A stretch of DNA of 64,000 bases from Ceratodon purpureus (lineage: Eukaryota > Streptophyta > Bryopsida > Pseudoditrichales > Ditrichaceae). Location: contig CM026426.1 in assembly GCA_014871385.1 (NCBI GenBank), positions 31,827,386-31,891,385 of the forward strand. The letters run 5' to 3'. Positions 21,351 through 46,722 of this stretch are shown in pieces. Each line of letters opens with the position of its first letter. Position 1 is the stretch's first letter. Under the pieces are notes generated by a model. The model did not search any database, had not been told where the DNA came from, and saw only the letters and a list, made by a program, of their open reading frames with translations. A program made the translations under genes and the position numbers.

Positions 21351-24334
21351 ATGGCGTCTAAAAGTTACTCCCCATGGTATACCGAAGTCCATATGATCGA
21401 TGCGGAGAAGAAGAAGACTGAGATGGTTCAATGTATGCTATGCAAGAACACTTTCGCATAGAGGATTGAGCGGATGCTCAGTCATTTGGGCTATGACAAA
21501 GTTCTAGGGCTACAGACTAGTGGAGTAGGTCGTTGCACTAATTTGTCACCCGCTATACTGTCCTTGTTCAAGAATTGCGGTGGCAAATTCCCCAACGATT
21601 CCAGAATATTCATGTCGGAGCAAAGTACTTCCCCTGTGACTCGTGGCAATATTTCCCCGAGAGTGAACACTCCCATGGATGTGGACTCATGTGCTGGATC
21701 CCGGGTTTCAACTCCGAAGAATGAACCCGTTTTATTTGGTGAGGGTGTACCTTTCATTTCCACTCTTCCGGGGGAAGGTAGTGGACCGTTTCCTCCTTTG
21801 AAGGCAAAGAGGCAATCTACCCTTCAAGAGGGCTTCGAAGAGACTCAGAGGCGGGAATGCGACAAAGCATGGGCCACATGTTTTTACGAGAACAGTATCT
21901 CGTTTAACGTGGCTCGGAGTGCCTCTTTCAAGGACGCGGTGTTGAAGACGTCCAACATGAAGAGATCATACACACCTCCATCTTACCACCATCTCCGAAC
22001 AAATTTACTAGCCCAAGCAAGGACTGATTTGGAGACTTCCTTGAATGATAGGATTTTTTCCAGTGTTAGGAAGTACGGGGGAACGTTGGCCCTGGATGGG
22101 TGGACTTCTGTAAGCAGTCGCCTTCTAATAAACGCAATGCTGGTATCTCCAGCTGGTGAGTTATTCTTGGGAGCCGTTGACACGAGTGGGAAAGAGAAGG
22201 ATGCTGTTTTCGTAGCGACCGTCATTGAGAAGTTTATCCAACAAGTTGGAGAACAGAACATCATTCAAGTATGCTACGATAATGCTCCGGTGATGCTTAA
22301 TGCCGGAAAGTTGGTCCAAGCACTCTATCCATCCATATTTGTCCAAGGATGTGCTGCCCATGCGATGGACCTTTTGTTGGAGGATTGGAGTAAGATGAAG
22401 TGGGTGAAGGAGCTCCTAGATCGGGTTAAGAACTTGGTTAAGTTCATAAAGATAAGGCAAATGCCACTCTCGGTATTTCGAAAGCACGAGGCAAAACTTA
22501 GCTTGCTGATGCCTGGTCAGACTAGGTTTGCATCGCACTACATTATGATTTCGCGTCTATTGAAGGTTCGAGGAGCATTGGAGCAGAGCGTTGTGGATCC
22601 TGACTAGAGAAACTACGAAACGAAGAAGACCTTATCTGCCTGTGACAAAGCGAAGATCTCACGCGATGTTAAGAGGGTTGTCTTGGATGACGTTTTCTGG
22701 GAGCAATGTGCAAACTTCAAGTGGATGACGAGTCCCGTTGTATATGCCCTACGAGAGTTTGATGCGAAGGAATCGGCATTGGGTAAAGCCTACGTCGTTC
22801 TCCGCAACCTTGAGAAGCATGTTCTCTCTTTACGCCATGAGCCCTTCAAACTAGACTCAGACAATGCTGATTTCTGCGAGGACTCATTTTACGAGCGTAA
22901 AGCCATGATTAAATCACCCTTACAGTGTGCTGCTGCGCTTCTAAACCCTTATCTTATTGACGATGAAGACCTTCGCAATGATACTGATGCAATGGCATCG
23001 GCGAAGGAGGTCTTGTTGTCGATGGCTCCTCCGACACTGAAGGAAGTGGTCATAGAAGAGTTCTTTGCATTTCGTGAAGCTTATCCTCCGTTTCGTGATG
23101 TACGTGACTCCTCTAAGTCACAACTGCCGCCTTCTGGTTGGTGGGATATATACGGATCCGCTGGTAAATTCATTTCCCCAATTGCAAAAAGGATTTTAGC
23201 TCAGCCCCTGTCTTCTTCTTCATGCGAGCCGAATTGGAGTAGCTACTCCTTTGTCCACGACAGGAAGCGAAACCGTTTACTTCCGGAGAGGACTAATGAC
23301 CTCGTGTTTGTGTATACAAATTCCAAGATAATTTCCCAGTCCAAGTTGAGTGCCTTAGGCAGGTTCTACGGGGAGTTGGAGGGGAAGGAGGATCCGAAGG
23401 CCGTGGAAACCGAGGACGTTGACTACTCTAGTGAGTATGATGTTGATCTACCCTTCGATGATCTATCAATTGACCCCCCCATCGAGGCCCCAGTCGACGA
23501 CCTCGAGGTGTCTCCGAAAGGAAAATCCCGTTGTTCTCCTGCGCCAATGGAGCGTGCTTTCGAGTATGATGATGTCGAAGAAGAAGGTACCAACGAGGAG
23601 GATACGATTCATCTTGCCTCTTTTTTGAATGGAGACGGTTTATTAAACAATGATAAGATTCTCCGGGGAGGATCCTCTCATACTACCGTGGATTTGGTCG
23701 TACCAAAGAAAGAGGAAGACCCCACCCTTGATACTTCTATGGTTGTTTCTCCAAACTTCAACCGCTTGAAGGAGGATATGGTTCCGACCACTACAAAAGA
23801 GGATGTGCCCGTACCCGTATCGGGTGCGTCTCGGACATTGTTTGGAACTGCAAAGACTAGGGTCCAAGTTGGTGGGTTCGAATCGTCCACGAGGCTGGTT
23901 GATTGTCTAAAAAAATGAAGGCAGATGCTAAGGCTACTAAAGTAGTGGAGAAATGTAGGAAGAGATTGGTCCGAACCCGACAAGCGGACCCGGGCATCCT
24001 CTCTACTGATGACGGACTTCCAATTGGGCATCTCTTTGGGCCGAAGTTGGCTTTGGGAAAACCGGACATATTTCCTGAAAAACCCCCTACTAGAGCCACG
24101 TCGAAGTGAAAGGCTATAGACAAGACTCAGAAGGTGTTGGCTTTCAATCCTGGGAGGCCAAAAACTCCTTTGGATGACCCGAATGGCCCAAAGAAATTCC
24201 TGAACCCATTCGAGTCAAAGAAGAAGACTAAGGCGAGGGTGAAGAAGGTACGCGCGAGCGATGGCGATGACGAATACGATTCTTCCGGTCCTAGTGGGGC
24301 CGAAGTGAAGGACGACAGCGATTATGTGGCCTGA
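21351..24334 (+). pseudogene. hAT transposase of E1 (BED finger, DUF659, C-terminal dimerisation domain)
   Basis: Intronless. The start at 21,351 (MASKSYSPWYTEV) is chosen because it precedes the BED-type finger (QCMLCKNTF ... RMLSHLGY). Then come a linker, DUF659 (LDGWTSVSSRLLINAMLV; VCYDNAPVMLNAGKLV; GCAAHAMDLLLEDW), TRFASHYIMISRLL, a helical region and the hAT dimerisation domain (PSGWWDIYGSAG ... CEPNWSSYSFVHDRKRNRL). The two Asp and the Glu expected of hAT enzymes are all present. The acidic C-terminus runs to 23,918. A further frame (23,903-24,334) looks like its continuation after a frameshift, with a stop at 24,107-24,109. In-frame stops at 21,459-21,461 and 22,605-22,607 disable this copy. 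It is the left-most gene of E1 and is the likely former mover of the element. Confidence 0.85.
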
Positions 24335-24454
24335 TTGGGCAAGATAGTTAGAAGGCTGCATTTCCAGTGCACCACCCTAGAATGCCACTCTTTTATGAAT
24401 GTCCATTTCTAGAAACCATTATCATATTATATCTCATTTAAGCAGTGGTGCCGT

Positions 24455-24840
24455 GCCTCCGCGGCCGTCCGATCGGGCCCTCTCCTCGGCAACGACCGTC
24501 CGATGAAGGCCGTCGCCGAGGGGACGGCCTTGGAGACGGCCCCCGAGGGGGCGGTTTGCGGCCCTCCGATCGCGGCCGTCCCCGCGGCCGTCGCCGTCCG
24601 ATGGCGGCCGACCGCGCGGGGACGGCCACGTAGACGGCCACGTAGACGGCCTTGGAGACGGCCGCGGGGACGGCCCCGTCGGCGACAGCCCGCGGCCGTC
24701 CGATCAAGGCCGTCTCCAAGGCGACGGCCGTTCGATCACGGCCGCGGTCGAAGGGCCGTCCCCGCGGACGGCCCCTCACGGAGACGGCCCCCGACCGTGG
24801 GGACGAGGCCGTCGCGGCCGCGGGAAATTTCCCTCCCCCC
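24455..24840. repeat. Array B: GGCCGTCC / GACGGCC degenerate repeats (E1 dialect)
   Basis: Irregular GC-rich repeats of GACGGCC, GGCCGTCCGATC and CGCGGCCGTC downstream of the E1 hAT gene. Same dialect as arrays C and D. No gene follows directly; the next sequence is AT-rich for 2.6 kb. Open frames in all phases here are by-products of the composition. Confidence 0.85.
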
Positions 24841-27564: not shown

Positions 27565-28265
27565 CCGGCCGTCACCGGGGACGGCCACGGCCGACCCCCC
27601 CTGGACGGCCGTCGCCCACGGCCGTCGGATCTTCTCCGACGAGAAGATCCTACGGCTGCGGACGACGGCCGTCCACGCGGGGACGGCCGTGTCCGACCCC
27701 GCGTGGACGGCCGTGGCCGACCCCGCGTGGACGGCCTTGGCCGACACCGCGGTCGCAGCCCCCCGACCCCGGGGTCGGCCGCGGCCGTCCCCGGGGACGG
27801 CCACGGCCGACCCCGCGGTTGGAAGGTCCGTCCCCGTGGACAGCCGTAGCCGACCCTGCGGTCGGAAGGGCCGTCCGCGTGGACGGCCGTGGCCGACCGC
27901 AGGGTGGAGCACGGCCGTCCCCGCGGGGTCGGACAAGGCCGTCCCCGCGAGGTGGAGCACGGGTGTCTTCGGGGACGGCCACGGCCCACCCCGCGGTCAG
28001 AAGGGCCGTCCGCGTGGACGGCCGTGGCCGACCACGCCGCTGCAGCCTCCGACCGACCAAAATGGAGCACGGCCGTCCCCGCGGTGGGCCGCGGCCGACC
28101 CCGAGGACGGCCGTCCACGTGGTCAGCCGTACCGACCGCGGGGCGGCGGTCCACCGACGCACCCTTTGGGGAGCGGTCGCGGCCGCGATCGTGGACAGCG
28201 GCGACCGGTCCCGCGACGGACTTGTTACGGCCTTCAGATTCTCTATTCCCCAAGGTCCAACGGCC
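27565..28265. repeat. Array C: GGCCGTGGCCGACC-type repeats (E1 dialect)
   Basis: About 700 bases of degenerate GGACGGCC, GGCCGTGGCCGACC and GGGGTCGG units, ending about 50 bases before a TATA-like box and 400 before the ATG of the gene at 28,666. Several frames stay open across it on both strands because stop codons are rare in this composition. Confidence 0.9.
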
Positions 28266-28665: not shown

Positions 28666-30168
28666 ATGCCTCGTAACGACCGGGGAGGACCCTCCACTCC
28701 TAAAAGGAAACACCCCTTGGATCCATACGCTACGAATGACCCTGATTGTGTAGCAGAGATTGGATGGGAGGGGGAACCATCACCATGGCGGATGGTAACT
28801 TGCAAGGAATATGTCAAGATGAAGCACCTCATGAAGTTGATCCCAGTACATCTACGTACCGAGGCTGTGGAGAAACAAGCAACACGGAGAGAGATCAGGA
28901 TCGACAATTGTGAAAGTAATCATTTCAAAATTCGATACAACGAGGTTTTTCGAGCAGCACGAATCCAGAACTCCCGACCTCATATCATGTTGTATTCGAA
29001 TATGGCAATGGTGTGGGCGGAGATAGTCTTACTTAAGAGGGTTGACTGGACCACAGTCTCGGACTTGAGGACAGATAGAATGAACAGAGACAGCATGGAT
29101 CTTGTAACAGACTGGAGTGGACATAGCCATTGTCCCCCATTACATATTTCAAACCGTCGGAGTCCACCGGCACAAGATGCAGGAATACAAACTCTAGCCA
29201 TCGAATATAATGATGAGGAACAGGAGAGACGTCGTTTAAGCTATGATGATGAAGACAACTATTGAGGGCGTCGCTCAAACGAAAATCCCAGGAATCGCAG
29301 AGGGCATCATGCCAGAGAGTCATCGCGTGTCAACCATGAGGAGTATAGACAAAGCTCTGCCCACGGGGGACACCGTTCGCTAGATCGTCAGGACATGGGA
29401 CCCCACGAACAAGGCTATGGCCACGGGGAACCGGAAGGAGCTGATTTACCCTTTGACTTTGCGGATGGTGCGTATGGACCCTATGGGGGACGACCGTGGC
29501 CAGATTATGCAACGGGATCAAGATACTTTAGTAACTATGACGACGGCTGGTCGGAAATATCGAGTCCTCCAAGGAGTGCTAGTCCGCGCCATCGAACACC
29601 TCCGAGAGAGGTACCTCACGGTTATTCCCCAGATCGCGAAGAAGATACGCAGAGACTGGGACGTGATGATTACGCAACTTCCCGTCCATACCGCGGATAT
29701 GGTGGTCATGGTACTCCATCTGCCCTATTTGCAGAAGATGATTACAGATCATCTTCGCGGACTCCGCCTGGAATATTTCCTCCACCTCTAGGTTATCACA
29801 CCAACGGTACTGATCACAATAGCGGGGACAACCCCAACGTACTTCATCCCGATGACAGAGTACCACCTCCTCCTTTTGGATACCCTCCCGGTCGAGTTGT
29901 AAGAGATAGCTATTTTGAGGAAGAACTAGAGTTGGAGCGAACAAGGCAAAATTACGTACTACAGATGGAGAATCATGCGTTTCACCTTAGACGGGATAAT
30001 CGAAGATTGATGGAGGAGAGAGAGAGACTTCTGAGAGCCTCCACAAATTCTGCAAGGCACGGGCCACAAGAAACGTACGATCGGGGAGGTCCAAGCGAAC
30101 TCCCCAATGATGGGAACTATTATCATCCATATGACTACAATGGATTAGGGTGGAGGGGAGACTATTAG
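28666..30168 (+). pseudogene. E1 charged/coiled-coil protein gene, one nonsense mutation
   Basis: Intronless. Start MPRNDRGGPSTPKRKHP. The same frame runs through a TGA at 29,263-29,265 to a stop at 30,168, about 500 codons in total. The N-terminal 150 residues form a globular-looking module (PSPWRMVTCKEYVKMKHLMK; IMLYSNMAMVWAEIVLLKRVDW). The same module begins the E2 gene at 35,265 (QPWTLATCEQFIEWCHIGK; FICRMVYAEVVLHRQVDW), so the two are paralogues. The rest is Gly/Pro/Arg/Asp-rich disordered sequence ending in a short coiled coil (YFEEELELERTRQNYVLQME ... RRDNRRLMEERERLL). No RING finger is found, unlike the E2 paralogue. Function unknown. The frame is otherwise clean, so the TGA may be recent. 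Confidence 0.6.
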
Positions 30169-31126: not shown

Positions 31127-32602
31127 TCAATAACCCACGCGATAGTGCTCGATGGGAGTGGGCCTATTGTGTGTATCTCTGAAACGGTTAATAAGATGTC
31201 CGAGTCCACCAATCGTTCCTTTGTTGTTTTGGCAAACTCTCTCAAGGTAACCTTCGAAAACCATTGCGAGTTCTCCGATATTCTGGAATTGGGGTGTTTC
31301 TACTGGCTCGGCTTCGTGGTATGCCGTGCACATGTTGCCCCTGTTGATCTTCGCCGCTATCTTTGCAGCTGCGAAATCCTCCGATGCAACCGTCAAATCT
31401 GGAATGATTTGAATATCTTGGTTTTCCTTGTGTACGTATACCACGCGAGGATCCACCCAGTATCGCCTCCTCATAGTCTCCTCCTTCTGATGGACACTCT
31501 CAAAAACCCAAGGCGACCTTCTGTTCTCTAGTGTCTTCGTCATCAAGCCCCAATCACAAACCCCGATGTAGATCTTGGACTCATCTTCCGGAAAGTGAAG
31601 TAGGATGTTGTCCGGTGACAAGTCATTGTGGAGGTAACCGTATTTGTGCACAGCATCTATGATGTTACACAATGCCCAAGCAAGCTCTGTACGCTTACTT
31701 CGGAAAAGTTGGAGACGCTTCCCTAGAATCGGACTGTCGTCTGCATTCTCTCTGAAGATGTAGTCGATGAGGAGGTCACGCGGGGCCTCGTTGTCTCTCT
31801 GTAGCATGGCTCGAAAGGTCCCACCGTTCCACCAGAACATGAATCCCACATGTTCCAACTGATGAATGGCCATGAAGCGGATGACACCAGGATGGGGAAT
31901 CCTTATCGCAAGAGATTCATTGTTGTGGTCCACACGTGCCAAATCCGGCCTCATAGACCAATTGAGCGGCCGTTTCTCAGCAAACTCCCAGTACGGTGGG
32001 ATTTCCGGGTTTCCTTCGATACGAACCCTACGTATGGTAGCATAACCACCTCTCTGGACTTCCTTGTCCAAGTAATAGAAAATTGCAAAGTCTGCCAAGA
32101 TAGTCAAATGCCGTTTACGTAAGTCAGCCGCCGTCTCCATCCCAATCGGAGAATTGCACCAAGTAATAGACGCCCGTCGATGCTTTCTTGAGCTATGGGG
32201 CGCCATTAGTCTCGTGAAGCAATCTGCCTTTGCAATAGTATCCTTGAAGGCCTGGACTCCCCCCCTTTGCGCCTTTGCATACTTAGTAATAACCTCTTTA
32301 GCATTCCATAACGCATCGTGTGCACGTTGTGACACGAAATGATCGTAACCGGGCTTCTGTGTATCCGAATGCCAGCACGGATCCATCAAACGATCCCTAA
32401 TCTTTGTCTCCATCTCTGACTTGAATTTCCTGGGCCCATCTTCTTCATACCGAAAGTAACGACTATTCAATGAAACAAGGGTATTCTCCTGGTAAAATTC
32501 CACGATGAATGCCACAATATAATCCCTGCAACGTAAGCTCGGCATGTCATCGAATTTGTTCGCCCATTCCCCCACATTCTTCTGCTTCTTGTTCTTTGGC
32601 AT
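31127..32602 (-). CDS. Protein-kinase-like protein of E1 (491 aa)
   Basis: Uninterrupted intronless ORF with its ATG at 32,602. The N-terminal 180 residues (MPKNKKQKNVGEWANK...) are not recognised. The kinase-like part has a glycine-loop remnant (GGYATIRRVRI, about residue 186), a candidate Lys (FAEKRPL), HPGVIRFMAIHQLEHVGFMF, catalytic-loop motif YLHNDLSPDNILLHF (about residue 324) and metal-binding motif YIGVCDWGL (about residue 350). HRD is replaced by HND and DFG by DWG. The activation segment has no APE (RRYWVDPRVVYV instead). It is clearly related to the intact E2 kinase at 45,154. This copy may be a pseudokinase, though the open frame argues for some retained function or recent decay. 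It is the right-most gene of E1, transcribed inward from array D. Confidence 0.8.
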   Translation of the reverse strand: MPKNKKQKNVGEWANKFDDMPSLRCRDYIVAFIVEFYQENTLVSLNSRYFRYEEDGPRKFKSEMETKIRDRLMDPCWHSDTQKPGYDHFVSQRAHDALWNAKEVITKYAKAQRGGVQAFKDTIAKADCFTRLMAPHSSRKHRRASITWCNSPIGMETAADLRKRHLTILADFAIFYYLDKEVQRGGYATIRRVRIEGNPEIPPYWEFAEKRPLNWSMRPDLARVDHNNESLAIRIPHPGVIRFMAIHQLEHVGFMFWWNGGTFRAMLQRDNEAPRDLLIDYIFRENADDSPILGKRLQLFRSKRTELAWALCNIIDAVHKYGYLHNDLSPDNILLHFPEDESKIYIGVCDWGLMTKTLENRRSPWVFESVHQKEETMRRRYWVDPRVVYVHKENQDIQIIPDLTVASEDFAAAKIAAKINRGNMCTAYHEAEPVETPQFQNIGELAMVFEGYLERVCQNNKGTIGGLGHLINRFRDTHNRPTPIEHYRVGY

Positions 32603-32886: not shown

Positions 32887-33508
32887 ACCTCGCGGCCGTC
32901 CCCACTGCCGTCCCCACGGCCGTCCCCGCAGCCGTCCGATCTACGCCCCCGCGGCCGTCCGATCGGGCGCGACTCCGCCCGAAGGCGCCGGCCGTCCGAT
33001 CGGACGGCCGCGTCGGGCGATGGCGCCGCATGGCCGTTCGACCGACGCGGCCGTCTCCGCGGTCGGCCGTGTCTCCTCGCGGTCGCCCATGCGGACGGCC
33101 GCGGGATCGGACGGCCCTCCGCAGCCGCCATGGTCGGCCGCGGAGGCCCGTCCGATCCAGTGGCCGTCCCCGCGGCCGACCATGGCTGCCGCGGGCCGTC
33201 CGATCCCGCGGCCGTCGCCGTTGCCGACCGCGGGGACGGCCACGGGGACGGCTGCGGGATCGGACGGCCCGCGGTTGGCCGCGCCGATCGAGCGGTCCCC
33301 GATGGCCTTCGCCGGGGTCGATCCGGGCCGTCGGATCCCGCGGCCGTCCCGAGGCCGTCCCCGCGGTCGGCCGCGGCGACGGCCGTGGGATCCGACGGCC
33401 CGCGATGTGCCAGTACGGCCGCATCTTGGCCGTCGGATCGACGTGCGGCCGTCCCCAACGACCCCGCGGCCGTCTCCGCGGCCGTCCCCGCGAACGGACG
33501 GCCGAGAT
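32887..33508. repeat. Array D: CGGCCGTCCGATC repeats, right subterminal region of E1
   Basis: Degenerate GGCCGTCC, GATCGGACGGCC and GGGACGGCC units upstream (on minus) of the E1 kinase gene. The array is cut at 33,508 by insertion of E2 and resumes at 47,370 with GATCGGACGGCTGG. Open frames on both strands were treated as artefacts of composition. Confidence 0.9.
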
Positions 33509-34498: not shown

Positions 34499-34611
34499 TC
34501 GACATTACAATGAAGTGATACATTTCCAAAATAAATAAAGTATTCTTTTTTAACTCTGAATTTGCAAGTCCTCTTTGGTTACTCTGATTTTTAACAGTGT
34601 TCTAGGTTGTG

Positions 34612-34980: not shown

Positions 34981-35098
34981 ACTATAAAAGGGCGATTTCC
35001 CACCTCATTTTGCACTCCCCCCCCTTTGAGCACCTTGCCTTCAACAGCCCCCGGGTAGCTGATTGCGTGGTACTCAGGTGGGTCCCAGCACTCTGACA
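34973..35098 (+). promoter_or_regulatory. TATA-like box and duplicated leader of the RING/coiled-coil gene
   Basis: CTATAAAAG lies between CGCCC and GGGCG (5-bp inverted arms). The leader GCCTTCAACAGCCCCCGGG with TAGCTGATTGC matches that at 33,963-34,080. About 280 bases separate the TATA from the ATG at 35,265. Confidence 0.55.
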
Positions 35099-35264
35099 CG
35101 TGTCCTTGTTTTTATTCTCCAGAACTCTATGGTGTCTGTGTATTACATTTGAGAATTTTGTAAATGTTTATAATTTGTAAATGTGATTGAGGTTCTGGGG
35201 TAGTCGTAGGCTTTTAATTTTGCACCTTCGGAAGACTTCGAAGAACGATCTACCTCGAGCAGAC

Positions 35265-37816
35265 ATGGAACGGCAACAACCAGCACTCACGGCGGCAGAG
35301 CAGAGGAAAAAGCAAAAGGATGCGGGACGGCCCAGGCATGGAAACCTCCAACATAAGAGGGTCCACGTCTTATTGAATCCAGCAAAGCTGGCATTCAGAG
35401 GGTGGGAAGCTGCATCGCAACCGTGGACTCTAGCAACGTGTGAACAATTCATTGAATGGTGCCACATTGGGAAGTTATTCCCGTTGCACCGTCATAATAA
35501 CAATCGTACTTCAAACAAGGCAAAATGAAATATTGCAAGAACCGTCAGTTCGGGAGGCGGTGTTTGGAGGTGTGGCAGGTCCTATACAACCAGGCGATGA
35601 ACGAGAGGAATGAGGTTCCGCTCTTTATTTGTAGAATGGTATATGCCGAGGTAGTGCTTCATAGGCAGGTGGATTGGAGGACCATACGGTTGACTCCTAG
35701 TGTCCAGCGGCGTCCACATGAGATGGCGATACCTACAGGGGTCCTAAGATTTCCAGGTGTGGACTGGGCATACTTGGATGATCCTGAGGATCAAGCGCCT
35801 GTTGAATGGAGTGACTCAGGGGAGGATAATGATTCTGATGGTACGGTAGACCGAACCCCTCAGTCACAGACAAGAGCAGCGACTAGTGCTAGAATCACAC
35901 GGTTAAAAAAGAAGGATCCTGTGCTAGCTGCCTGTTTGTCGACGAGGAATCGTGCACCGCCTGCAAATCCTACTGGACCGGGTATTCCTCATCAGGCTCC
36001 TCCAGCAATCGTCGGGGGCCCAAGCAATGTTGATGTTGCTCCTCCTATATTAGTTCCACATATTGCGGGCCCGAGCAATGTTGATGTAGCTCCTCATGTA
36101 CTAAATCCACAGATTGCGGGCCCGAGCAATGTAATGGAAGATGATGACACTGGGTTTGCAGATGAGTTGGAGGCTACAATAGCCGCCGCTGATGCCCAGG
36201 GCCTGCAAGTCGATGCATTGCAGAAGGAGCTGGAAGGAAAAAATGCAATAATTTCTGAGATGGAGAAGACTATCCAGAACTTGTACGAGGAAGCTGATAG
36301 GATGAATGAGATTATACGGAAGCAGAATGAAGAGATTTGGCAACTTAGATCTGCGAAGACTCCGACTTACGTACCCGAAGCAAGCCAAGCTCCAATCCCT
36401 GGTAGCCCTGGAATGAACGAGGAAGACGTGAATGCCATCATTGAATCGGCCACGCACGGTCTCCTGGAAGATACCCCGGTCCGAGTTCCCCGTAAGCCAA
36501 TCATTCCATTCGCGTCATCAAGTCAAGTGATGCACCCCCCCCAGCGGCAAATCATGTTCGTAGATTCTCAAGAGACGGAGGACTCTTTGGGATTTCAACA
36601 GCCATCAGTACCCACTGTCTCCGAATTGCAAGCTACCAACGGGATGCTCAGAAAGTATCTGATCGAGATGAGCAGACAGTACTACCAATGGAAGATTGCA
36701 TGCATCATGAACGTCGACCGTTTCAGACAGATGCGCGCTGAGTTCGAGAGGATTGACCCCGACTACCTCCAGCTTAACTCCAAGAGAGATTTCGGACTTA
36801 CCTCGTGGGCAGATCCAAATGAAATGTTCCCTGACAGCCTACCGATGATTGGTAAAGCAATAGATTGGACTCGGTTGGGGTGGGAGTACAAGACCGCCAT
36901 ATCCAATGAGAAGATCGCTAAAAATGCAAAGCCAAGCTTGCTCTGGCCCAATCCAGCGAAGTATGTGTTGGATGGAACCCACTGTGCAATTTGTACCAAT
37001 CTATTTGGGCCAGAGGGGGGCTGGCAATTGGGATCCTGTCAATGCATGTATCATCCACAATGCTTGATCTCGTGGGCCTTGATACGTCGGAAGTGTGCAG
37101 TATGTAAGGCCCCCTTACACAAGCGTTTTTATGAGCAATTCGGCCTAGTGAATTGGATGCCACCGCATTGGGAGCAAAATGAGGAAAATACTCCTGACTT
37201 TCCAGACAAGTGGGGTGAAGACTTGATTTGGAATTGGCTTATGGGAATGCACCTGTCCTATATTAAACAAATGAGCGATCAGTGGAGGTGGGACCAGAAA
37301 CCTGCGGAGATTGTACGGATCTGCCACGAACTCATCAAGGGCGGGACGGAGGAGGAACTCGAGGGAAGGAGGAATTTCTTCTACCAAGTGCTACATGGGT
37401 ATTGGGATATTCAAACTTGTACATTCCAGTACGGCCCCCATCCTCTTGGATTTAAGTGGAATTCCAAAGGGGAGTTGGTTGCGGATCAGATCAAGGAGTT
37501 GCACGACATGACTGCAGAGGATTTCCGGATCGCTGAGGATGTACAAACCGCGGAATCTGAATGGGATATGTTGTTCAAGAATCAAGCCGTGGATTTCCTA
37601 TGTGCTGAAGTGGCTCCGGAGGTCGTAACAGTGCTCCGTCGGATGCGCAACAACAACTTCATGGAAGCAATGCTTGGAGGAGATGGCATAGCGAAGAGAA
37701 CCCGTTCTGCCAAGCGGAAACTCATCGCCAACGATGGGGCAGAAAGTAGTGCAGCAGGTACCTCTCGTGCTCGACACGATGAAGGTGGATCGAGTTCCTC
37801 TGCACCGGGCACGTGA
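35265..37816 (+). CDS. RING-type C4HC3 finger and coiled-coil protein of E2, one frame slip
   Basis: Two overlapping frames make one gene. The first (35,265-35,528, MERQQPALTAAEQRKKQK) holds the N-terminal module shared with the E1 gene. The second (35,525-37,816) continues it (KYCKNRQFGRRCLEVWQV; FICRMVYAEVVLHRQVDW). They meet at an AAAA run (35,522-35,525), so a one-base slip or sequencing error explains the break. Then follow an acidic disordered part with a repeated GPSNVDVAP motif, a coiled coil (LQVDALQKELEGKNAIISEM ... NEIIRKQNEEIWQL, 36,190-36,350), and a zinc finger at about 36,980-37,100: CAIC ... SCQCMYHPQCLISW ... KCAVC, spacing C-x2-C, C-x-C, H-x2-C, C-x2-C. C4HC3 order resembles RING-CH, often found in ubiquitin ligases. 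The C-terminus is basic, then Ser-rich. An E3-like role is inference. Confidence 0.75.
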
Positions 37817-38420
37817 CGTCGTGGAGATCCATGAGTGAAGACCACGTTTTGTAAAAAGATATCGGAATATAAATACATGTAGATGGCATAGGGGTATGGA
37901 TTATTGGATAGGTTTGGGATTACATTCACATGTTTAATGTTTGTTAAACTCAAACAATGGATGATAATTTGCTTTTGTAAATCATTGTCGTGATTCTCAA
38001 GCCGCTTTTATGCTCCCTTCATAATACATTGGCCTCTCTTTTTTGGATTGCCAATCATGTTATTCATTCCGCCCGTTGTCTCATCTCCTTCCATCGTATG
38101 ATAAGTGTATAAATATCTCTGTTGCACACCAAAATGTTTAATATGGACAGTGGATTTAAGTCACGCTAAAGGTCCCTTCACACCTGGAGGTGTGTACCAC
38201 CGGCTACCGACTGTCTAACTCCGGGCCCTCCAAAAAACCCGTTTCCGATTCACAGGGTTCGAGTTAATTTACAGGGGGTTGGGTCTCGTGATAGGCCAGA
38301 GTCGGGGATCGGGGGCTGGGGTTCTTGCTGGATTTAAGTCACGCTAAGAGAACTTCAGTTATTGTAAGTGTATTTAACTTATGGACTGAATTTTATGTTA
38401 CGTGGATTTGAACTCTGATC
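37817..38420. other. Spacer with a 159-bp insert between perfect 19-bp direct repeats
   Basis: TGGATTTAAGTCACGCTAA occurs at 38,151-38,169 and again exactly at 38,329-38,347. The 159 bases between contain GGGTTCGAGTT, similar to a pol III B box. Direct repeats of this length are typical of insertions made by LINE machinery, so a SINE-like insertion is possible, but no A-rich tail is clear. Nothing else recognised. Confidence 0.45.
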
Positions 38421-39040
38421 CCGCCCGCATGGTCGCGCGCGTTTGCGCGCGCCCGTAGTGTGCGTACTCGCGCGCGCGCGAACCTGCCCCAGCGAGAATA
38501 AAACCAGGATTACGCCCGCCCGTGCGCGCGCGCACAAACTGCTCGCGCGCGTGCGAAGTGCTCGCGCCCGTCGCGCCCACAGCGCGCGAACGGATACTGA
38601 AATGTGGAACACCCGACGGTGTCTCCGTCGTTTGGCTCGCGCCCGATTCCGCATGCGCCCGCCCGATTTCGCGCGCGCCCGACAGTGCACGCGCGCGCGC
38701 ACTGCAACCTGGGTGGGGGACTAATTTCTCTCCCCAAACTCTCTTTTCCATTTGCCCGCGCCCGTACGCGCGCGCGCGTCCTGATCGCGCCCGTCAAACC
38801 AACCGCGCGCGCGCGGTCGCATGATTCTGAATCTCTTCCTCCCCCACAATGTCCCCCGCATTTCGTTCGCGCTCAATTTCGCGCGCGCCCGATTGCGCGC
38901 GCCCGTCAATACTCGCGCGCGCGCACTGCAACCATGTCATGGAAGTAATTTCTCCCCATTCAGTCCCTCGTTCCATTTGCACGCGCCCGGACGCGCTCGC
39001 GCCCATCAATGCGGGCGCCCAAGCACGCGCCCAAGCACTC
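38420..39040. repeat. Array G: GCGCGCGCCCG repeats with a higher-order unit (E2 dialect)
   Basis: GCGCGCGCCCG repeats interspersed with non-GC patches. A unit of roughly 270 bases occurs twice: ACTGCAACC ... TAATTTCTC ... TTCCATTTGC near 38,698-38,755 and near 38,926-38,980. No gene directly follows. Open frames on both strands are artefacts. Confidence 0.85.
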
Positions 39041-39151
39041 CAACAACATCACTCAAATAAATTTTATGATTCCCCCACTCTCCCATCGTATCCCCTTGTT
39101 TTTATTAAATAATCCCACACTCTCTAAATTTTTAATTGTTTTTTTTCCCCC

Positions 39152-40060
39152 TCTTTGAACAGTACGTTTTTATTTAACTCGTAATCTCATTTTGTCTGTT
39201 CATTTTTATAATATACTAAAGGTAGTAAATCTTCATGTCGACCCAGAGTCACATGAAGATCCTCTAAGCGCCTGAGTTCAGCTGATTTATATCCACTATT
39301 TTTTTTTTTCCCACTGTTTTTTTTTTCCCCCTTCGTTGAACACTACGCTTTTATTTAATTCCTTCTTTCATTTCGTTTGTTCAATTTTATAATTCCACCT
39401 CTCCCCCTTCTTCCCGCCTTATTTTTATTCAATACTTCTACGCTCTGTAATTTGTTTTATATTTTTTTTCCCCTTCGTTGAACACTACGCTTTCATTTAA
39501 TACCTTCTCTCATTTTGTTTGTTTATTTTTATAATTCCACCTCTAGTCTATCCTCCCGCCTTATATTTATTCAATACTCCTACGCTCTTGAATTCCTTTT
39601 TTTTTTTCCCCCTTCGTTGAACACTACGCTTTTATTTAATTCCTTCTTTCATTTCGTTTGTTCAATTTTATAATTCCACCTCTCCCCCTTCTTCCCGCCT
39701 TATTTTTATTCAATACTTCTACGCTCTGTAATTTGTTTTATATTTTTATTTCCCTTTCGTTGAACACTACGCTTTCATTTAATACCTTCTCTCATTTTGT
39801 TTGTTCATTTTTATAATTCCACCTCTAGTCTATCCTCCCGCCTTATATTTATTCAATACTCCTACGCTCTTTAAATCCCTTTTTTTTTTTTTTCCCTCTT
39901 CGTTGAACACTATCATTCTATTTAATTCCTTCTCTCATTTCGTTTGTTCATTTTTATAATTCCACATCTCCCCCATCCTCCCGCCTTATTTTTATTCAAT
40001 ACTCCTATGCTATTTAATTTTTTTTTTCTTTCTTTTGGGTACTCCAATCTCCCATACTAA
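39152..40060. repeat. AT-rich tandem repeat, about 140-bp unit arranged A-B-A-B
   Basis: The landmark CTTCGTTGAACACTACGCTT starts units at 39,331, 39,473, 39,612, 39,754 and, diverged, 39,898; a degenerate copy begins near 39,152. Units at 39,331 and 39,612 are nearly identical to each other, as are 39,473 and 39,754, so a dimer of about 283 bases was duplicated. Units contain TTTATAATTCCACCTCT and TTATTCAATACT. No coding potential is seen. Confidence 0.85.
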
Positions 40061-40144
40061 TGTATGGTATTTCAGTGTAGTCCAGTCTCTCCCTTAAGCT
40101 TTATTTTTTTTCTTTTTTTGAACTTACGACTTTTAAACTTCATT

Positions 40145-40395
40145 GAGCGCGCCCTGTTGGATCGCGCGCGTCCGAACGCGCCCGCAGGCGCCGGCGCGGT
40201 GGTGTCCGCAGTGGACCCACTGAACCTGCCCACGCGCGCGCGCGCACACTCGCGACCGCGCCCGCAAGTACGCGCGCGCGCCTGCTTGTTCGACGCGCGC
40301 ACGCGTCGTCCCCGACCTGCGCTCGCCCTGCTCGCGCCCACCCGTTCGCGCGCGCCTGCTCGCGCCCCACGCCGCCTGCGCGCGCGCTCGGGGTT
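40145..40395. repeat. Array H: GCGCGCCCG repeats (E2 dialect)
   Basis: GC-rich block with GCGCGCGCG and TCGCGCCC units, isolated between the AT-rich tandem repeat and a 340-base spacer with no recognised gene. Open frames on both strands are not supported. Confidence 0.85.
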
Positions 40396-40734
40396 TCAAC
40401 TGGATTAGTGCAGTAACTAGTAAAATTTATCCCATATTTTAAGTTAACACTCCCTGAGGTTAGCTTAAAACGACTTACCTTCCACTAGGAGGGCAGAAAC
40501 ATGAGGGGCGAAATGACAACCTGCTCTAGTTCTTAGACATGTGTGAATGGAGTGGTTTGTCCTTTCGCACTGTCATGTTTCTCATTTTTTTTACTAAAAT
40601 AGGGTTCCTTTTAATGTAGATGTGCACGTGTATGTAGTTCACACACTTTAATTTATTTAAATTTTATTCATTTTTCCCTCTCGTTGTTACTTCTTCTCAT
40701 AGAATTGAGGTGGTCAAATCGATCCCGGCCGTTT

Positions 40735-41050
40735 GATCGCGCCCGCACCCGACCGCCCGTGCGCGCCCGCGCCTGCATTCGCCCGCCGCTCTCCGCCCGT
40801 GCGCGCCCGCGCCCGCATTCGCCCGCTGCTCTCCGCCCGCGCCCGCCCGCGCCCGCCCGCTTCGCGATCCAGCGCTCGCGCGTGCATGCGCCCGCCCCCG
40901 CCCGTCTTCCACCGCGCGCGCTATCCGCCACGCGGCCTTCAATCGCGCGCACCCACCTGCGCCCGCCCGTTCGCCTCGGAGCGCGCCCGATCTTCTGGTG
41001 CGCGCGCGCCCGTTCGGTCGCGCCCGTCCGGACAGTACTCGCCCGGTCGA
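40735..41050. repeat. Array I: GCGCCCGC repeats upstream of the E2 transposase
   Basis: TCGCCCGC, GTGCGCGCCCGC and CGCGCCCG units, including a duplicated segment of about 45 bases (CTCCGCCCGTGCGCGCCCGC). The array ends directly at the TATA hairpin at 41,055. Confidence 0.9.
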
Positions 41051-41054
41051 GGGC

Positions 41055-41072
41055 GGCAGTATATAAACTGCC
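41055..41072 (+). promoter_or_regulatory. TATA box between perfect 6-bp inverted arms, E2 transposase promoter
   Basis: GGCAGT, ATATAA and ACTGCC form a stem-loop with the TATA in the loop, about 240 bases upstream of the ATG at 41,311. The leader ends with TTGGGTGGGGGG, as does the kinase leader near 45,093-45,106. Confidence 0.5.
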
Positions 41073-41310
41073 CCCTTGATTTGACATCCACCTTACCTCC
41101 TTGCGTGCTTCATGTCCTGGGTCTCCTTGAGGGCTCCTTGCTTGAAACTGTTAGCTTGAGGAGACACTTGGTTTGGGTGGGGGGAATGTAAAAATTCTTC
41201 TCTCCATAAATCAATGTGTCAAGCACTTTTCAGACACACTAAGTTATTCAGATAATAATCTTTTGGTACTACTGGTCCTATTAGTCCCGATACTTCCCTA
41301 ATCATTCACT

Positions 41311-44261
41311 ATGGATCCGGATGAAGCGGTTGAACCGGTTGAAGTGGTTGCTCCGGCTAGAGCCATTCCAAGACTCGGTACGAGAGAGTGGGCACCATGG
41401 TTTTCGATCAAGTTCCAGGAAGGGTCACTGTCACATAAGGTAGCCCAATGTGTGTATTGCAGGACCAAGTTTTCGTACGTGAGGTCCAGGTGCTTTCAGC
41501 ATTATGGTTGGGACCAGTCCAATCTCTCGAGGGTTTGCCAAAAGGCACCTACCGTAGTGAAGAGGAAGTTTCAGTTTTGCGCTGGAAAGATTCCCGGCCC
41601 TTTGACACAGGAGGAGGTGGATGGTATCAGGCCAACGTTCCCCGCGTCAATTCAACGTGGAACATCCAGTGCTTCCACACACGGCACTCTGTACGGTGGA
41701 TCCGAACCCTCGTATAATGATTCCGAAGAGGACCGAAATGTCTCCAGTGTTGCACCTAGTAGGGCCGGTTCGAATACCACTAGGAGCTTGCGGCAACAGG
41801 ACATGAGTGAAGTACTCCAGATCGCCAAGCGGAAGGAGCTGGACATGTTGTGGTCATCCTTCTTTTACGAAGCCAACGTCGCATTCAACGTGGCCAAGCA
41901 CCCAGCATTTATTAAGGCGGTGAGCACAACCGCGGCTGCCGGATTTAACTACAGTCCTCCTTCCTATGACGCGATGCGAACAACGCACATCAAGGAAAAA
42001 AAGAAGTTAATCAAGGCAAAGATTGATGAACGTACGAAAACCTCGACCGAGTTATACGGGGGTACCATATGCTCCGATGGCTGGGATAATGTGAATCGCC
42101 GACCGTTGATGAATGTCATGCTAGTATGTCCGGCAGGCGATGTATTTCTTGGGTCTGTTGATACGACTGGCGAGAAGAAGTCAATGGGATATATTGCCGG
42201 GGAGATGAAGAAGTATATTCGAGAAATTGGCCCTCAGAATGTTGTCCAGATTTGCACGGACAATGCAGCCAACATGCTTGGCGCCATGGATAATATCCTG
42301 GAGGAGTTTCCTCACATGTACAAGCAGGGCTGTTGTGCCCATATTCTAGATCTTCTTATGGAGGACTGGGGCAAGGAAGTCTTTGTGAAGGATTTGGTCG
42401 CCAAGGCTAAACACGTGTGTCATTACATTCGGAGACATCATGTTCCCATGGCCCTTTTCCGCAAATTTGAACCGAAGTTGTCCTTGGTGGTTCCCGCTGA
42501 AACCAGATTCGCTTGTAACTATCTGATGATAGAGCGCCTTATGGAGGTTAAATTTGCTTTGGAGCAAGTGGTCATGGCACAGGAGTGGTACGAGTATGTC
42601 GACGGTTTATTCAACCAAACCGAGGGGGTGCGTAATCATGCACGCGCAAGCGTAGTGCGTCAAACAATTCGTGACGATGGGTTCTGGCATCAGTGTGACA
42701 ACTTCACGCACCTAGTGAAACCAGCCCTAGTAGCTCTCAGGACCTTCGATGGAAGCCAGCCGGCAATGGGCAAGGCATGGATTACAATGAGCAACCTAAA
42801 GGATCACGTGTACAATCTCCGAGGATTCCCTTGCTTTTTCCCACCTGTCATGGCAACAAGGATGGAGCTGCGGTTCGACCGTAGATGGGACATGATGCAT
42901 ACCGATCTTCATTATGCCGCGGCGCTCTTGAACCCTTGGGTTAGAACGCATAAGGGCTTACAATCCATGGGGATGATGATGTCTGGGGACATGATAACGT
43001 CGACGTTAACACGAATGGGCAAAACGACGGTAATGGCAACGGACGCGGTGACCCTAACCGCAACAATCCGCGTGACCGCAACAACCACGACGATAACGGT
43101 GATGAGTACGACTTCAACAATGAACCAGAATATAACCAGGGAAACCCGGACATGAACATCTATGGAGACGAATTACCCACGCTCACGGTATTTGATGAAG
43201 CGGCTAATGCAGAAGGAAGAGGCGCTCGTGACGAAAGAGATGCTATTCCAGTCCAAATCAATCCTGAGAACAATGACGGGGTTGCAGATGATTCATCCAG
43301 CGAGGACCATCTAGGCAACGATATCCATGCTGGCGATGATGATGAGGACAGTGACGAAGGGGGTGATGGAAGTCATGGACGGGCTGTAGATGGACCTCAT
43401 TGGACCGGCCTCGTTAGTGGGGAGGGCAACTGGGGAACCGTTCCGGCACAAGGCGACTCAAGCTTGTTTCAAGAGATTCCTCCTGCTCACGAGAGAAGGA
43501 CTGTGCACGCAATCCCCGCACAGACTGTGGCTCCATCGCAACCCACTGGTACGGGGGGTATCGAACCAGATACAATCGTGGATGGAAGCCTGGCTCGGAG
43601 GCCCACAAGTTCAATGGGCGCAAAAATAGCTCGACTCCTTAGATCATCAGCAGCGGCGAGGCCTCCACTCAATCGAGCTAGTGGTAGTCGGCGTGGTGCC
43701 TCCACAGCCAAGCTAGTCCCCGTGGCGCCAGCTATAGACGAAGCCGTACAGAATGTGGCCCAACGTGGTGCGAAGAAGTCCACAGCCAAGGTTGTTAGGA
43801 AACCACCATCACAAGAACCCCGCGGAGGAACACAAAAGTCAAGCAAAAAAACTGGACCTGATCCCCTTCCATTCTATACAGGGTACACTGAAGGGGGGCC
43901 TTCTTCTGGAACTGGGGTTGTTCGCACACGCATAAACTTTGAGGATGGCATCACAGCCATCGGTAATTCCGGAAAGGAGAGGCCTATGAAGCGCCTAGTA
44001 AGTGCCAGAGATGGCAATACGGGTGAAGTTTCCGTGCAAGTGCGCAATCTTACATCGGAGGTGGAAGGAGAGGTACAAGCTCCAGTGGTCGGAGCTCCTG
44101 AGGATGAAGGTGACAACGAGCACTCAGAGGAGGTAGACCCCGATTGCGATGAGGCGCCAGATGACGAAGATGTGATAATCCGGCACGAATTGGGGCCCAC
44201 TGTAGCTCGGAAAAGACAATCTTCACGCAAGAAGAAGCCCCGCAAAGCAAGGAGAGTCTAG
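41311..44261 (+). CDS. hAT transposase of E2, dimerisation domain missing, one frame change
   Basis: Intronless. Starts MDPDEAVEPVEVV. BED-type finger (QCVYCRTKFSYV ... CFQHYGW, about residues 48-68), then DUF659 (ICSDGWDNVNRRPLMNVMLV; ICTDNAANMLGAMDNI; GCCAHILDLLMEDWGK) and TRFACNYLMIERLM. Paralogous to the E1 transposase. Where E1 continues with the dimerisation domain (WWDIYG ... CEPNWS), this copy jumps from LHYAAALLNPW to an Asp/Asn/Gly-rich stretch. The reading frame also changes at about 42,955-42,970, from the frame ending at 43,155 to the frame ending at 44,261. The catalytic Glu expected in the deleted part is therefore absent. The remaining tail is disordered and ends strongly basic (RKRQSSRKKKPRKARRV). 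With no other stop, the gene may be recently deleted or a repurposed DNA-binding protein. Confidence 0.8.
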
Positions 44262-44597
44262 ACTGTGGTCACCTTTTTAGCGCATGAAGTAGCAGTAAAT
44301 CTAAACATAAAATCTACCGGCTAAAAACCAAAAAAAATACTACGTTATTCTTAATGTTTTTTTTTTTTTTTTGGTAGCACCTTCTTATTACGTAGGCTTA
44401 TACTGTTACTTAGAGTCAACCTAGTTCATTATCTCACACTCGAAGGAATTGTATGGTTGTGCTTTGTATTAATTTTTGTGCGCTAAATGCGGTTAATATA
44501 TCTCCATTGAGTAATTTCCCAGTGAATTTTTTTGGTATTCTGTTCAATATACGAGTATACCGTAACCGAACCTGTACAGTGTATGTAACGCTGCCTA
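44262..44597. other. Spacer, 3' region of the E2 transposase gene
   Basis: No gene seen. Contains a T run (44,356-44,373) and AT-rich sequence before array J. Confidence 0.4.
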
Positions 44598-44965
44598 TCC
44601 GGGCGCGTGCACTGGGACGGACGCGTACAGGAAGGCGCCCGCAGGGGCACGGTGTCGGGCGCGTGCGCGGGGACGGGCGCGTGCACGGTCACGGGCGCGT
44701 ACAGCGTGCTCGCGCGTACAGATAACCGGCGCGCGCAGGGGTACGGGCGCGAGCACGCGGGCACGGGCGCCTGCGGCGTCGGGCGCGCCCGATGTGGGCT
44801 GACGGGCGCGCACGTGGGCACGGGCGCGCAAACGCGGGCACGGGCGCGGGCAGTCCCCCGCGCGAACGCGGTGGACGGGCGCGTGCAGACGGGCGCATGC
44901 GGACGGGCGCGTGTGGAGGCCCTGTGCGCGCGCGTGTACGCGCTTACGGGCGCGAACAGCCGAGG
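44598..44965. repeat. Array J: GGGCGCGTGC repeats upstream of the E2 kinase
   Basis: Units such as ACGGGCGCGTGC and GGGCACGGGCGC: the E2 dialect read on the opposite strand (GCGCGCCCGT inverted). The array ends directly at a TATA-like box. Open frames on both strands have no support. Confidence 0.9.
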
Positions 44966-44984
44966 GGAGCATAAAAGGCGCTCC
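44966..44984 (+). promoter_or_regulatory. TATA-like box in the loop of a 5-bp inverted repeat, E2 kinase promoter
   Basis: GGAGC and GCTCC flank ATAAAAGGC, directly after array J and about 170 bases upstream of the kinase ATG at 45,154. The leader that follows resembles the transposase leader (CTCCTTG, GCTTGGAACTG, GATTGGGTGGGGGG). Confidence 0.45.
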
Positions 44985-45153
44985 TTAACCCTTATTTTCT
45001 ACTTTTCAAAGTCTCCTCTTCCAGGTGGCTCCTTGTCCTAGCCCGTGACTCCACGTGCTCTGCTTGGAACTGCAGGAAGTGGGAGCAACCAGATTGGGTG
45101 GGGGGGATCTTTTGGTTTTTTTTTTATTGTGTGTCCAGTTCATTATTCCAACT

Positions 45154-46722
45154 ATGTCGGTCTCTCGCGGATCCGGGAAACGCCCTGCCTACGTAGATCT
45201 TGATGCTCCTGTAGAGGATGTGATGGCAACCTCCACAGCACCGACCGTTACAGGCTCAAACCCGTCATCAAGCTCATCGGGAAAGAAGAACCGGAAGTCG
45301 GCGAGTGAGAGGGACCCGGACTACCCACCTCCTCGGTACCAGGAATTCGTTAGAGAGCTAGCATTGGAGTGGTACGGATGTCGGAAACGGGAGATGATTA
45401 CCCGTACGTACGTTGAGAAGGGGGCGACCGGAATTAAGGACTTAAAGACCCATTTGGAAGAGTATTTGTGGAAGAAGCTGGACCTTTCCGAGAGATATAA
45501 TGATTGTATTCATTACTTTCATTTCCCTAAGTGGATGGAGCAACAAATAACAACAAACACTACGAACATTGTGCATGTCTTTGAGTGTGTCAACAAGAAG
45601 CCAAAGGAGGGCTACTCGCGGGCGCTGAAGGAAGAGATAGAGAAGCTCAAATATGTCCAGGATTCGTGCGCGAGATTCTCGAATAATAAGACGAGGGCGA
45701 GGCCATGGCTTGAAGCTGGACTGAAAAGCGCAATGGAGAAGTACTTGTGGGGAGCAGTGGTTGGAGTTCCGAGAGGGGTCAAGTTGGTTCCGCTGTCAGG
45801 CACAAAGGAAGGCGGTTATGGTAAAGTCCGAAAATTACGTATTGTTGGCATGCAAACCATACCTGAGACTTGTGTCTTTGCGGGGAAGACGTCCAAGGCT
45901 CCTGACGAGACCCAGAAGCGGCACGAGACATCAATAGAAGCCATGGTTTGCAGAATTGACCATCCCGGCGTTATTAAGTTTTTTGCGGTCAATGACTGGA
46001 CGATGGAAGCCTACACGCTTTGGTGGAATGGGGATTGCCTGCAGAATTTTCTGCACAAGTTCAATTCAAATATCGGTGAGGGTACTCAGAACCGTAACAT
46101 CCACAAGCAGATCGATATGCCCATGGAAACACGTGACCGTGTTAAGGCCTTCCGCACCCATAGGGCCAAGCTAGCTTGGGCACTCATCTGTATTATGGAC
46201 CGGGTGCATAAGGGGTATTTGCAGCATAATGACATCTCCCCGGGAAATGTCTTGCTTCACTTCCCAGAGGATAAAGTGAGCGAGGTTTACATTGGAGTAT
46301 GCGACTGGGGCCTTGCAAGTCGAGTGTGTGAGACAACTCCTTCAAGGTACGGTTACCCAAGTGATGAGGCGCGTACGGAAGCCTTCAAGGAACGTGGTAG
46401 TTTTGTGGCTCCGGAGTTGTGGTACACTTATGGTAAGCGAAATTCGGAGACCTCTTATGAAACTGTAAGGAGGAGACATCTATATACGCAGGCTGCCGAT
46501 GCGTACTCGGTTGGAGTGGTAGCAAATAAGATTTGGGATAACGAGGACGACTTCGACCTTTTCAAGGATACAGCGGGGAAGGCTAGATTTGCGGTGGCGT
46601 TGAAGGAGCTCACAAATCCCGATCCCAAGAGCCGCTCCACCTTGCGTTTGGTCCACGCTACTCTAACAGCCCCTCCCTACAATTTCCAAATCCCAGAGTG
46701 TTGTTATCGCAAACATATTTAG
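45154..46722 (+). CDS. Protein-kinase-like protein of E2 (522 aa), intact
   Basis: Clean intronless ORF; the first ATG after the promoter is at 45,154 (MSVSRGSGKRPAYVDLD). A Ser-rich N-terminus and an unrecognised helical region of about 200 residues precede a complete kinase-like domain: glycine loop KEGGYGKVRKLRI (about residue 217), Lys in FAGKTSK (about 243), Glu helix HETSIEAMVCRIDHPGVIKFF, catalytic loop LQHNDISPGNVLLHF (about 355), YIGVCDWGLASRV (about 382), activation-segment end RGSFVAPELWYTY (about 418), and DAYSVGVVANKIW for subdomain IX. HRD is HND and DFG is DWG, as in the E1 paralogue. Lys, Glu, catalytic Asp, Asn and metal-binding Asp are all in place, so activity is plausible. 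Substrate unknown. It is cargo of the hAT-type element and has its own GC array and TATA box. Confidence 0.88.
   Translation: MSVSRGSGKRPAYVDLDAPVEDVMATSTAPTVTGSNPSSSSSGKKNRKSASERDPDYPPPRYQEFVRELALEWYGCRKREMITRTYVEKGATGIKDLKTHLEEYLWKKLDLSERYNDCIHYFHFPKWMEQQITTNTTNIVHVFECVNKKPKEGYSRALKEEIEKLKYVQDSCARFSNNKTRARPWLEAGLKSAMEKYLWGAVVGVPRGVKLVPLSGTKEGGYGKVRKLRIVGMQTIPETCVFAGKTSKAPDETQKRHETSIEAMVCRIDHPGVIKFFAVNDWTMEAYTLWWNGDCLQNFLHKFNSNIGEGTQNRNIHKQIDMPMETRDRVKAFRTHRAKLAWALICIMDRVHKGYLQHNDISPGNVLLHFPEDKVSEVYIGVCDWGLASRVCETTPSRYGYPSDEARTEAFKERGSFVAPELWYTYGKRNSETSYETVRRRHLYTQAADAYSVGVVANKIWDNEDDFDLFKDTAGKARFAVALKELTNPDPKSRSTLRLVHATLTAPPYNFQIPECCYRKHI

Follow-up and report, generated by a model that had tools for sequence, protein, structure and literature searches.

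The DNA analysed comes from Ceratodon purpureus (assembly GCA_014871385.1, contig CM026426.1, forward strand, 31,827,386–31,891,385). The whole stretch of 64,000 nt is called the window, and all positions given below are window positions. It contains two transposons of the hAT type, E1 and E2. Their ends show that they are not neighbours: E2 (33509–47361, + strand, 13,853 bp) is nested within E1 (20472–47525, + strand), which without E2 amounts to 13,193 bp. E2 is bounded by terminal inverted repeats (TIRs) that match at 19/19 positions and by an 8/8 target-site duplication (TSD), GCCGAGAT, at 33501–33508 and 47362–47369; no equivalent of this end pair was found in shuffled sequence. The E1 TIRs, CCGGGTTGTC and CAGGGTTGTT, match at 8/10 positions and are flanked by identical TSD copies (8/8, TTCAATAC) at 20464–20471 and 47526–47533. 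Taken alone, the E1 pair has a chance background of 6/300 shuffles, and the assignment of these ends rests on related copies, which have the same ends. Both elements are internally deleted in the window, and the transposase of each is broken. Scanning the window for Rfam families and tRNAs yielded no match.

The E1 transposase (21351–24334, + strand) is a pseudogene with a DUF659 and a dimerisation domain; the window copy has in-frame stops at 21459 and 22605 and a change of frame near 23916. The transposase is in one open frame in none of six copies (that of the window and five full-length ones), so that E1 may be inactive. The E2 transposase (41311–44261, + strand) lacks about 500 bp at about 42963, among them the region of the conserved Glu and of the dimerisation domain, and its frame is shifted; it is open and 1148 aa long in two other copies. 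Pfam matches DUF659 in both transposases, and Dimer_Tnp_hAT in that of E1 and in the full-length relatives P0080 and P0109. The two proteins are 41% identical over 265 aa. In the C9 copy of E2, the 1148-aa transposase has the motifs SDGW, TDNA and CERNW, and the D, D and E columns, which we take to be the catalytic residues, are invariant in 19 relatives. A long and variable tail lies C-terminal of the dimerisation domain. The transposase domains, the D-D-E residues, the 8-bp TSDs and the short TIRs are those of hAT elements.

Each element also encodes a protein kinase in an open frame, of 491 aa in E1 (31127–32602, − strand) and 522 aa in E2 (45154–46722, + strand). Both match Pkinase in Pfam, slightly or clearly under the curated cut-off, and they are 28% identical over 387 columns (E = 5e-40). 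The catalytic Lys is kept in 64/64 kinase sequences and the catalytic Asp in 62/64. A model of residues 196–522, which barely covers the N-terminal helical part, predicts a eukaryotic protein kinase fold with its catalytic residues. Two candidate relatives on bacterial contigs, L001 and L002, are unrelated bacterial serine kinases that share the HND motif.

The three genes that the initial annotation had named for E1 (hAT transposase, charged coil protein and kinase) are all present according to Pfam and pairwise comparisons, as is the E2 gene for a 134-aa helical protein (34094–34498, + strand), which has no Pfam match and is open in the C9 copy and broken in the C5 copy. The further claim that E2 carries paralogues of all three E1 genes holds for the transposase and the kinase, but not for the remaining pair. 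The E1 coil protein (28666–30168, + strand) has 500 aa in intact copies and a stop at 29263 in the window, and the E2 RING protein gene (35265–37816, + strand) encodes 850 aa in P0063 and the C9 copy, whereas in the window its frame is broken near 35525. Their similarity is confined to an N-terminal domain that is common to the coil and RING proteins (37% over 38 aa; 31% over 109 columns between the coil protein and P0063, a close E2-type relative). The coil protein is not the true counterpart of the E2 RING protein: besides it, full-length E1 copies encode a RING protein of their own. The E1 RING gene (about 3.9 kb) is absent from the window copy, with a deletion at about 24459.

The eight RING Zn ligands are kept in all 17 of the 18 sequences that cover them, one ligand in 16. 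The ligand pattern is found in the C9 copy and, on visual inspection, in the RING protein of E1. The Pfam match to the RING domain is weak and under the curated cut-off, and P0063 and P0065 have none at E <= 0.01; the fold model of the RING protein is too poor for use (mean pLDDT 50.8). An origin of the kinase and RING genes in a large DNA virus or virus-like element, fused with a hAT transposase, would fit the uninterrupted and closely packed frames, their intronless reading and their own promoters, and VRK1 is among the weak matches to profiles of solved kinases. However, scans of viral contigs confirmed no relative, nor did those of plasmids, and we regard a viral origin as extremely improbable.

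Both families are multicopy: a search of the 362-Mb genome, with the window included in the counts, gave at least 40 copies of the E1 kinase (98% or more identity) and at least 40 of the E2 kinase (about 100%). The full-length E1 relatives are 16.5–17.5 kb long and encode a transposase, a RING protein, a coil protein and a kinase. One full-length E2 relative (the C9 copy, 15.7 kb), compared to which the window copy is deleted, has four open genes, for the 134-aa protein, the RING protein, the transposase and the kinase. The extra gene is family-specific, the 500-aa coil protein in E1 and the 134-aa helical protein in E2, and transposase, RING protein and kinase thus recur in two families which are only 28–41% identical. 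E1 and E2 belong to two diverged multi-gene hAT-type families that share a DUF659 transposase, a RING protein and a kinase.

The location of the kinases between hAT-type ends is supported for E1: the right end is present in 9/10 other copies fetched, and the left end in 4/5 of those extended leftwards, the remaining one running into N. The TIR CAGGGTTGT stands at both ends of four copies, whose TSDs match at 8/8, 7/8, 7/8 and 2/8 positions (the last in C4_21), so that three of the five extended copies reach at least 7/8. For E2, there are at least 40 left ends and at least 40 kinases; the candidates in the genome numbered 221 + 314 + 366, of which 40 each were scored. Among the best 40 left ends listed (window included), 18 could be paired by hand with a listed E2 kinase in the same orientation, the left end lying 11.6–14.3 kb upstream of the kinase, and the exact TIR is present at 8/8 right ends fetched. 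The 8 bp that flank the C9 copy do not match (CATGGCTC / GTCCAAGG), and no exact left end was detected in the C5 copy.

The accessory genes had been read as functional cargo and not chance captures, which their location in the elements and their conserved catalytic residues support. Purifying selection on them, also expected, agrees with the conservation of the catalytic Lys and Asp, but among copies within the genome it is weakly supported. The comparison of shared and private changes, pooled over 17 kinase and 16 coil copies, gives p = 0.046; the values are 0.15 when all four genes are pooled, with fewer copies, and 0.21 for the shared changes of the kinase alone. Stop density in E1, as a sign of constraint on the kinase, is not significant (P = 0.34). 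The private changes look neutral (N/S relative to neutral of 1.02 for the kinase and 1.14 for the coil protein) and 4/17 kinase copies have stops, as would be the case if these were host kinase and RING genes that a common ancestor had acquired accidentally and that have since been carried without function. Plant DNA transposons do capture genes (PMC13317346). On the contrary, the genes have been kept since before the split now seen as 28% identity, with their catalytic residues and Zn ligands conserved; their frames are open in young copies, and each has its own promoter and motif array. Conservation between the families already speaks largely against passenger capture, which we consider very unlikely.

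These arrays are a new feature: a dense array of a short motif lies upstream of each element gene. The motif of E1 is GGCCGTCC, that of E2 CGCGCCCG, and the two families hardly overlap in this respect. In E1, GGCCGTC occurs 17 times at 20633–21062, upstream of the transposase (TATAAA at 21139), 18 times at 24463–24813, adjoining the deletion and, in full-length copies, upstream of the RING gene, 22 times at 27567–28115, upstream of the coil gene (GCATAAA at 28315), and 23 times at 32894–33503, upstream of the kinase, where E2 is inserted at the array edge. In E2, GCGCCCG occurs 8 times at 33662–33912, before the 134-aa gene (TATAAA at 33966), 15 times at 34615–34978, before the RING gene (TATAAA at 34983), 11 times at 38449–39018, in the distal spacer, 11 times at 40739–41026, before the transposase (TATATA at 41060), 16 times at 44600–44953, before the kinase (GCATAAA at 44969), and 10 times at 46927–47217, in the right subterminal region. 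The E2 motifs are strongly oriented, with 8/8, 14/15, 10/11 and 11/11 on the + strand, 14/16 on the − strand before the kinase, and 10/10 on the + strand at the right end; the E1 arrays have no orientation bias. The spacers also hold tandem 44-bp and 142-bp repeats. The initial annotation had missed the arrays, like the nesting and the deleted E1 RING gene.

The arrays might be by-products, either GC-rich satellite-like expansions or CpG clusters that are tolerated in spacers and have no binding protein. Slippage spreads repeats such as the tandem ones of the spacers, and the unoriented E1 arrays would agree with this idea. It is nevertheless unlikely: position frequencies show a constant core motif despite varying spacing and neighbouring bases, the E2 clusters are strongly oriented, and the gene-by-gene placement recurs in five full-length E1 copies.

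The non-transposase genes are probably selfish accessory genes, in a system where recognition of a family's own arrays co-expresses its genes, with the kinase and the RING protein assisting. The kinase, RING and family-specific genes would form the element's own set instead of being passengers. The arrays of each family would be recognised by one of its own proteins, the best candidates being the transposase and the N-terminal domain common to the RING and coil proteins, and all the family genes would thereby be kept expressed together. The kinase and RING protein may modify host silencing factors, transcription factors or the transposase. Since the arrays are almost wholly different between families, each system would act on its own kin only.

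The accessory genes would act either in anti-silencing or transactivation, or in control of the transposase. In the latter case the kinase would phosphorylate the transposase and the RING protein would modify or degrade it (dosage or cell-cycle control), while the arrays would be transposase-binding enhancers with no role in anti-silencing. The long variable tail of the transposase is in line with this proposal. The Ac transposase binds a repeated subterminal AAACGG (PMC3260210), and ACGGAC is repeated at the E2 ends (3 and 4 copies); by analogy, the arrays at the element ends could be nothing more than transposase-binding repeats. However, arrays precede every gene, far from the ends, and their motifs are other than the subterminal ACGGAC repeats; such control of transposition seems rather unlikely.

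If self-recognising accessory genes are the right explanation, E1 and E2 would represent a hAT lineage whose multi-gene toolkit is conserved and includes two protein-modification genes, and two families with nearly non-overlapping motifs provide a direct test system for sequence-specific self-recognition. The question at stake is whether self-recognition is a general transposon route around silencing, beyond the VANDALs of Arabidopsis. Genetics is established in the moss Ceratodon purpureus, whose sex chromosomes are giant; the families can be tested in this host and bear on the growth of these chromosomes.

E1 and E2 share a hAT transposase, short TIRs and an 8-bp TSD with Ac/Ds and other plant hATs, for which this TSD length is usual. 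Ac encodes a single transposase, whereas members of the E1 and E2 families are 15.7–17.5 kb long, and among their four genes are those for a kinase and a RING protein, with an array before each gene. Ac measures 4.6 kb and has a repeated subterminal motif (PMC3260210), as the E2 ends do. No hAT element with a kinase appeared in the literature searched, which consisted of titles and abstract starts, with most subscription journals outside it, and the main text of a 2026 review of plant transposon gene capture does not contain "hAT" or "kinase" as whole words (PMC13317346).

By analogy, the arrays resemble the target arrays of the VANDAL/VANC anti-silencing system of Arabidopsis, which belongs to another superfamily. 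VANDAL21 (Hiun; VANA, VANB and VANC) has dense family-specific noncoding motifs, in one orientation, that differ between related families (PMC5735166). E1 and E2 likewise combine several genes with family-specific motif arrays in noncoding regions, but they have a hAT transposase and TIRs, VANC is a different protein, and the E1 arrays are not in a single orientation. VANDALs are non-TIR MULEs (PMC13317346); with their hAT transposase and TIRs, E1 and E2 are not members of this group, which is Mutator-like with a VANA-type transposase. Pfam scans of the element proteins revealed no VANC homologue. VANC proteins reportedly act on VANDAL elements of their own kin. In the VANDAL/VANC system, DNA methylation is lost in a sequence-specific manner. 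That hAT transposons independently evolved a VANC-like, sequence-specific self-activation or anti-silencing, executed by the kinase and the RING protein, with private and fast-diverging arrays before every element gene and with related families of one genome that speak non-overlapping "dialects", is a tentative idea that we find possible but doubtful. The KIU-carrying VANDAL (Kaonashi) elements offer another parallel, as an accessory gene for a protein-modifying Ulp1 domain is kept in these DNA transposons (PMC13317346), like the kinase and RING genes in E1 and E2, although the domain is Ulp1 rather than a kinase and a RING, and the elements belong to the Mutator superfamily, not to hAT.

Two hAT-type transposons lie one inside the other in the window, and both belong to multi-gene families whose kinase and RING genes are conserved and which have private motif arrays. 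The inner element, E2 (33509-47361), has terminal inverted repeats (TIRs) that match at 19/19 bp and an 8-bp duplication, GCCGAGAT; its TIR has no other occurrence in the window at up to 3 mismatches, and none in shuffles. The outer element, E1 (20472-47525), is flanked by TTCAATAC, outside E2, and carries the repeats CCGGGTTGTC/CAGGGTTGTT. The E1 end pair alone has a chance background of 6/300 shuffles; it is accepted because other E1 copies have the same ends. Since the ends and the duplication of E2 lie inside those of E1, E2 is an insertion into E1, placed on the border of the motif array that precedes the E1 kinase gene. A 17-bp tandem repeat array (19929-20370) is found immediately outside the E1 left end. 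The window also contains Transposase_21 (tnp2) and DUF4218 open frames (54813-57088), presumably the remnant of a CACTA-type element, and a retroelement integrase fragment (rve, Integrase_H2C2; 1824-2444).

Pfam searches and pairwise alignments show that the transposase, kinase-like and charged or coiled-coil proteins named in the initial annotation are present in both elements. The two transposases contain DUF659, that of E1 also has a hAT dimerisation domain, and they are 41% identical over 265 residues. The kinases match the protein kinase domain with 31.4 and 23.9 bits, both below the curated cut-off of 31.7, and share 28% identity over 387 columns. The E2 coiled-coil protein has a weak RING match. 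The claim that E2 encodes paralogues of all E1 proteins holds for the kinase and the transposase, while the coil protein has only an N-terminal domain in common with the E2 RING protein.

A further kinase of this kind, M758_3G001500 of Ceratodon purpureus (P0057), is 46% identical to the E1 kinase, and its sequence suggests that it may belong to another such family in this species. Relatives of the transposase include P0139, a Ceratodon U-chromosome protein. A kinase (P0027) and a DUF659 transposase (P0138) of these families are public records of a "Bacilli bacterium" MAG; their presence in that bin is probably due to plant contamination.

The genome search covered the 362.5-Mb assembly (window at G000:C6:31827386-31891385), and every list counts the window's own copy. 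The best 40 of 221 candidates scored for the E1 kinase are nearly all full length (98-100% identity), the best 40 of 314 for the E2 kinase are all full length and given as 100%, and the best 40 of 366 for the E2 left end are all 100%. Pairing by hand placed at least 18 of these 40 left ends, including the window's, 11.6-14.3 kb upstream of an identically oriented E2 kinase from the list of 40. As the pairing covered the best 40 of 366 and the best 40 of 314, the remaining 22 do not count against this arrangement.

Ten other E1 copies were picked via the kinase, and five of these were extended to the left end. The exact right end is present in 9/10 and the left end in 4/5, the fifth running into N; the four copies with both ends measure 16.5, 17.2, 17.2 and 17.5 kb. 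Kinases had been expected between hAT-type ends with 8-bp duplications: the ends bear this out, as do the duplications of C13_14 (8/8), C6_100 (7/8) and C6_77 (7/8), but not that of C4_21 (2/8). The window E1 lacks, at ~24459, ~3.9 kb present in the copies comparable at that point. This segment codes, on the opposite strand, for a 1056-1060-aa protein (open in 3/5 extended copies) which has an N-terminal domain and a RING region in common with the E2 RING protein (~29-33% identity). A full-length E1 therefore comprises four genes, for the transposase, the RING protein, the coil protein and the kinase. Among the extended copies, 4/5 keep the 500-aa coil frame open and 3/5 the full 491-aa kinase; the transposase is interrupted in all five and in the window copy. 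In copy C6_36 (L013-L014), ~10.7 kb of unmatched sequence within the coil gene is possibly another nested insertion.

For E2, two copies were fetched, together with eight further right ends, all eight with the exact repeat. The copy on C9 is bounded by perfect repeats, measures 15,718 bp and has its four genes open (134, 850, 1148 and 522 aa); the 8 bp on its two sides differ. The C5 copy has an open 1148-aa transposase and kinase, and broken RING and small genes; a search for its exact left end found none. Compared with both, the window E2 is missing two stretches, ~500 bp within the transposase gene and ~900 bp on the downstream side of the RING gene. An AT-rich tandem repeat within E2 (~142-bp unit, 39060-40040) varies in extent among E2 copies.

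The noncoding parts of E1 contain 49 GGCCGTCC, nearly absent from E2 and the flanks, and those of E2 contain 61 CGCGCCCG, nearly absent from E1 and the flanks; block-wise shuffles give at most 8. The E2 clusters are oriented (8/8, 14/15, 10/11, 11/11, 14/16 and 10/10), and the four gene-proximal ones stop 5-54 bp ahead of a TATA-like box; E1 clusters have no orientation bias. All five full-length E1 copies have four clusters of at least 5 motifs, one upstream of every gene (in C4_21 the RING start was set by analogy), and the window array at 24463-24813 is the counterpart of the one preceding the RING gene. The C9 and C5 copies of E2 have six clusters each, four of them preceding the four genes. 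Distinct from these arrays, repeated ACGGAC at the E2 ends brings to mind the AAACGG repeats to which the Ac transposase binds (PMC3260210).

None of the papers listed by searches of an open-access library (12 of 74 matches in one case) describes a hAT element with a kinase; the library covers few subscription papers, so that absence is unproven. We infer that the non-transposase genes are selfish accessories of the elements; the main rival explanation is that the kinase and RING proteins control the transposase itself. For the selfish-accessory reading, the nearest working model would be, by analogy, the VANDAL/VANC anti-silencing system of Arabidopsis with its KIU branch. E1 and E2 are outside the VANDAL family, because they belong to the hAT superfamily and have TIRs. 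VANDALs encode a protein that binds arrays of short noncoding motifs and lifts silencing only from members of its own family (PMC5735166, PMC10398659), and the KIU branch has an accessory gene with a Ulp1 protein-modifying domain (PMC13317346).
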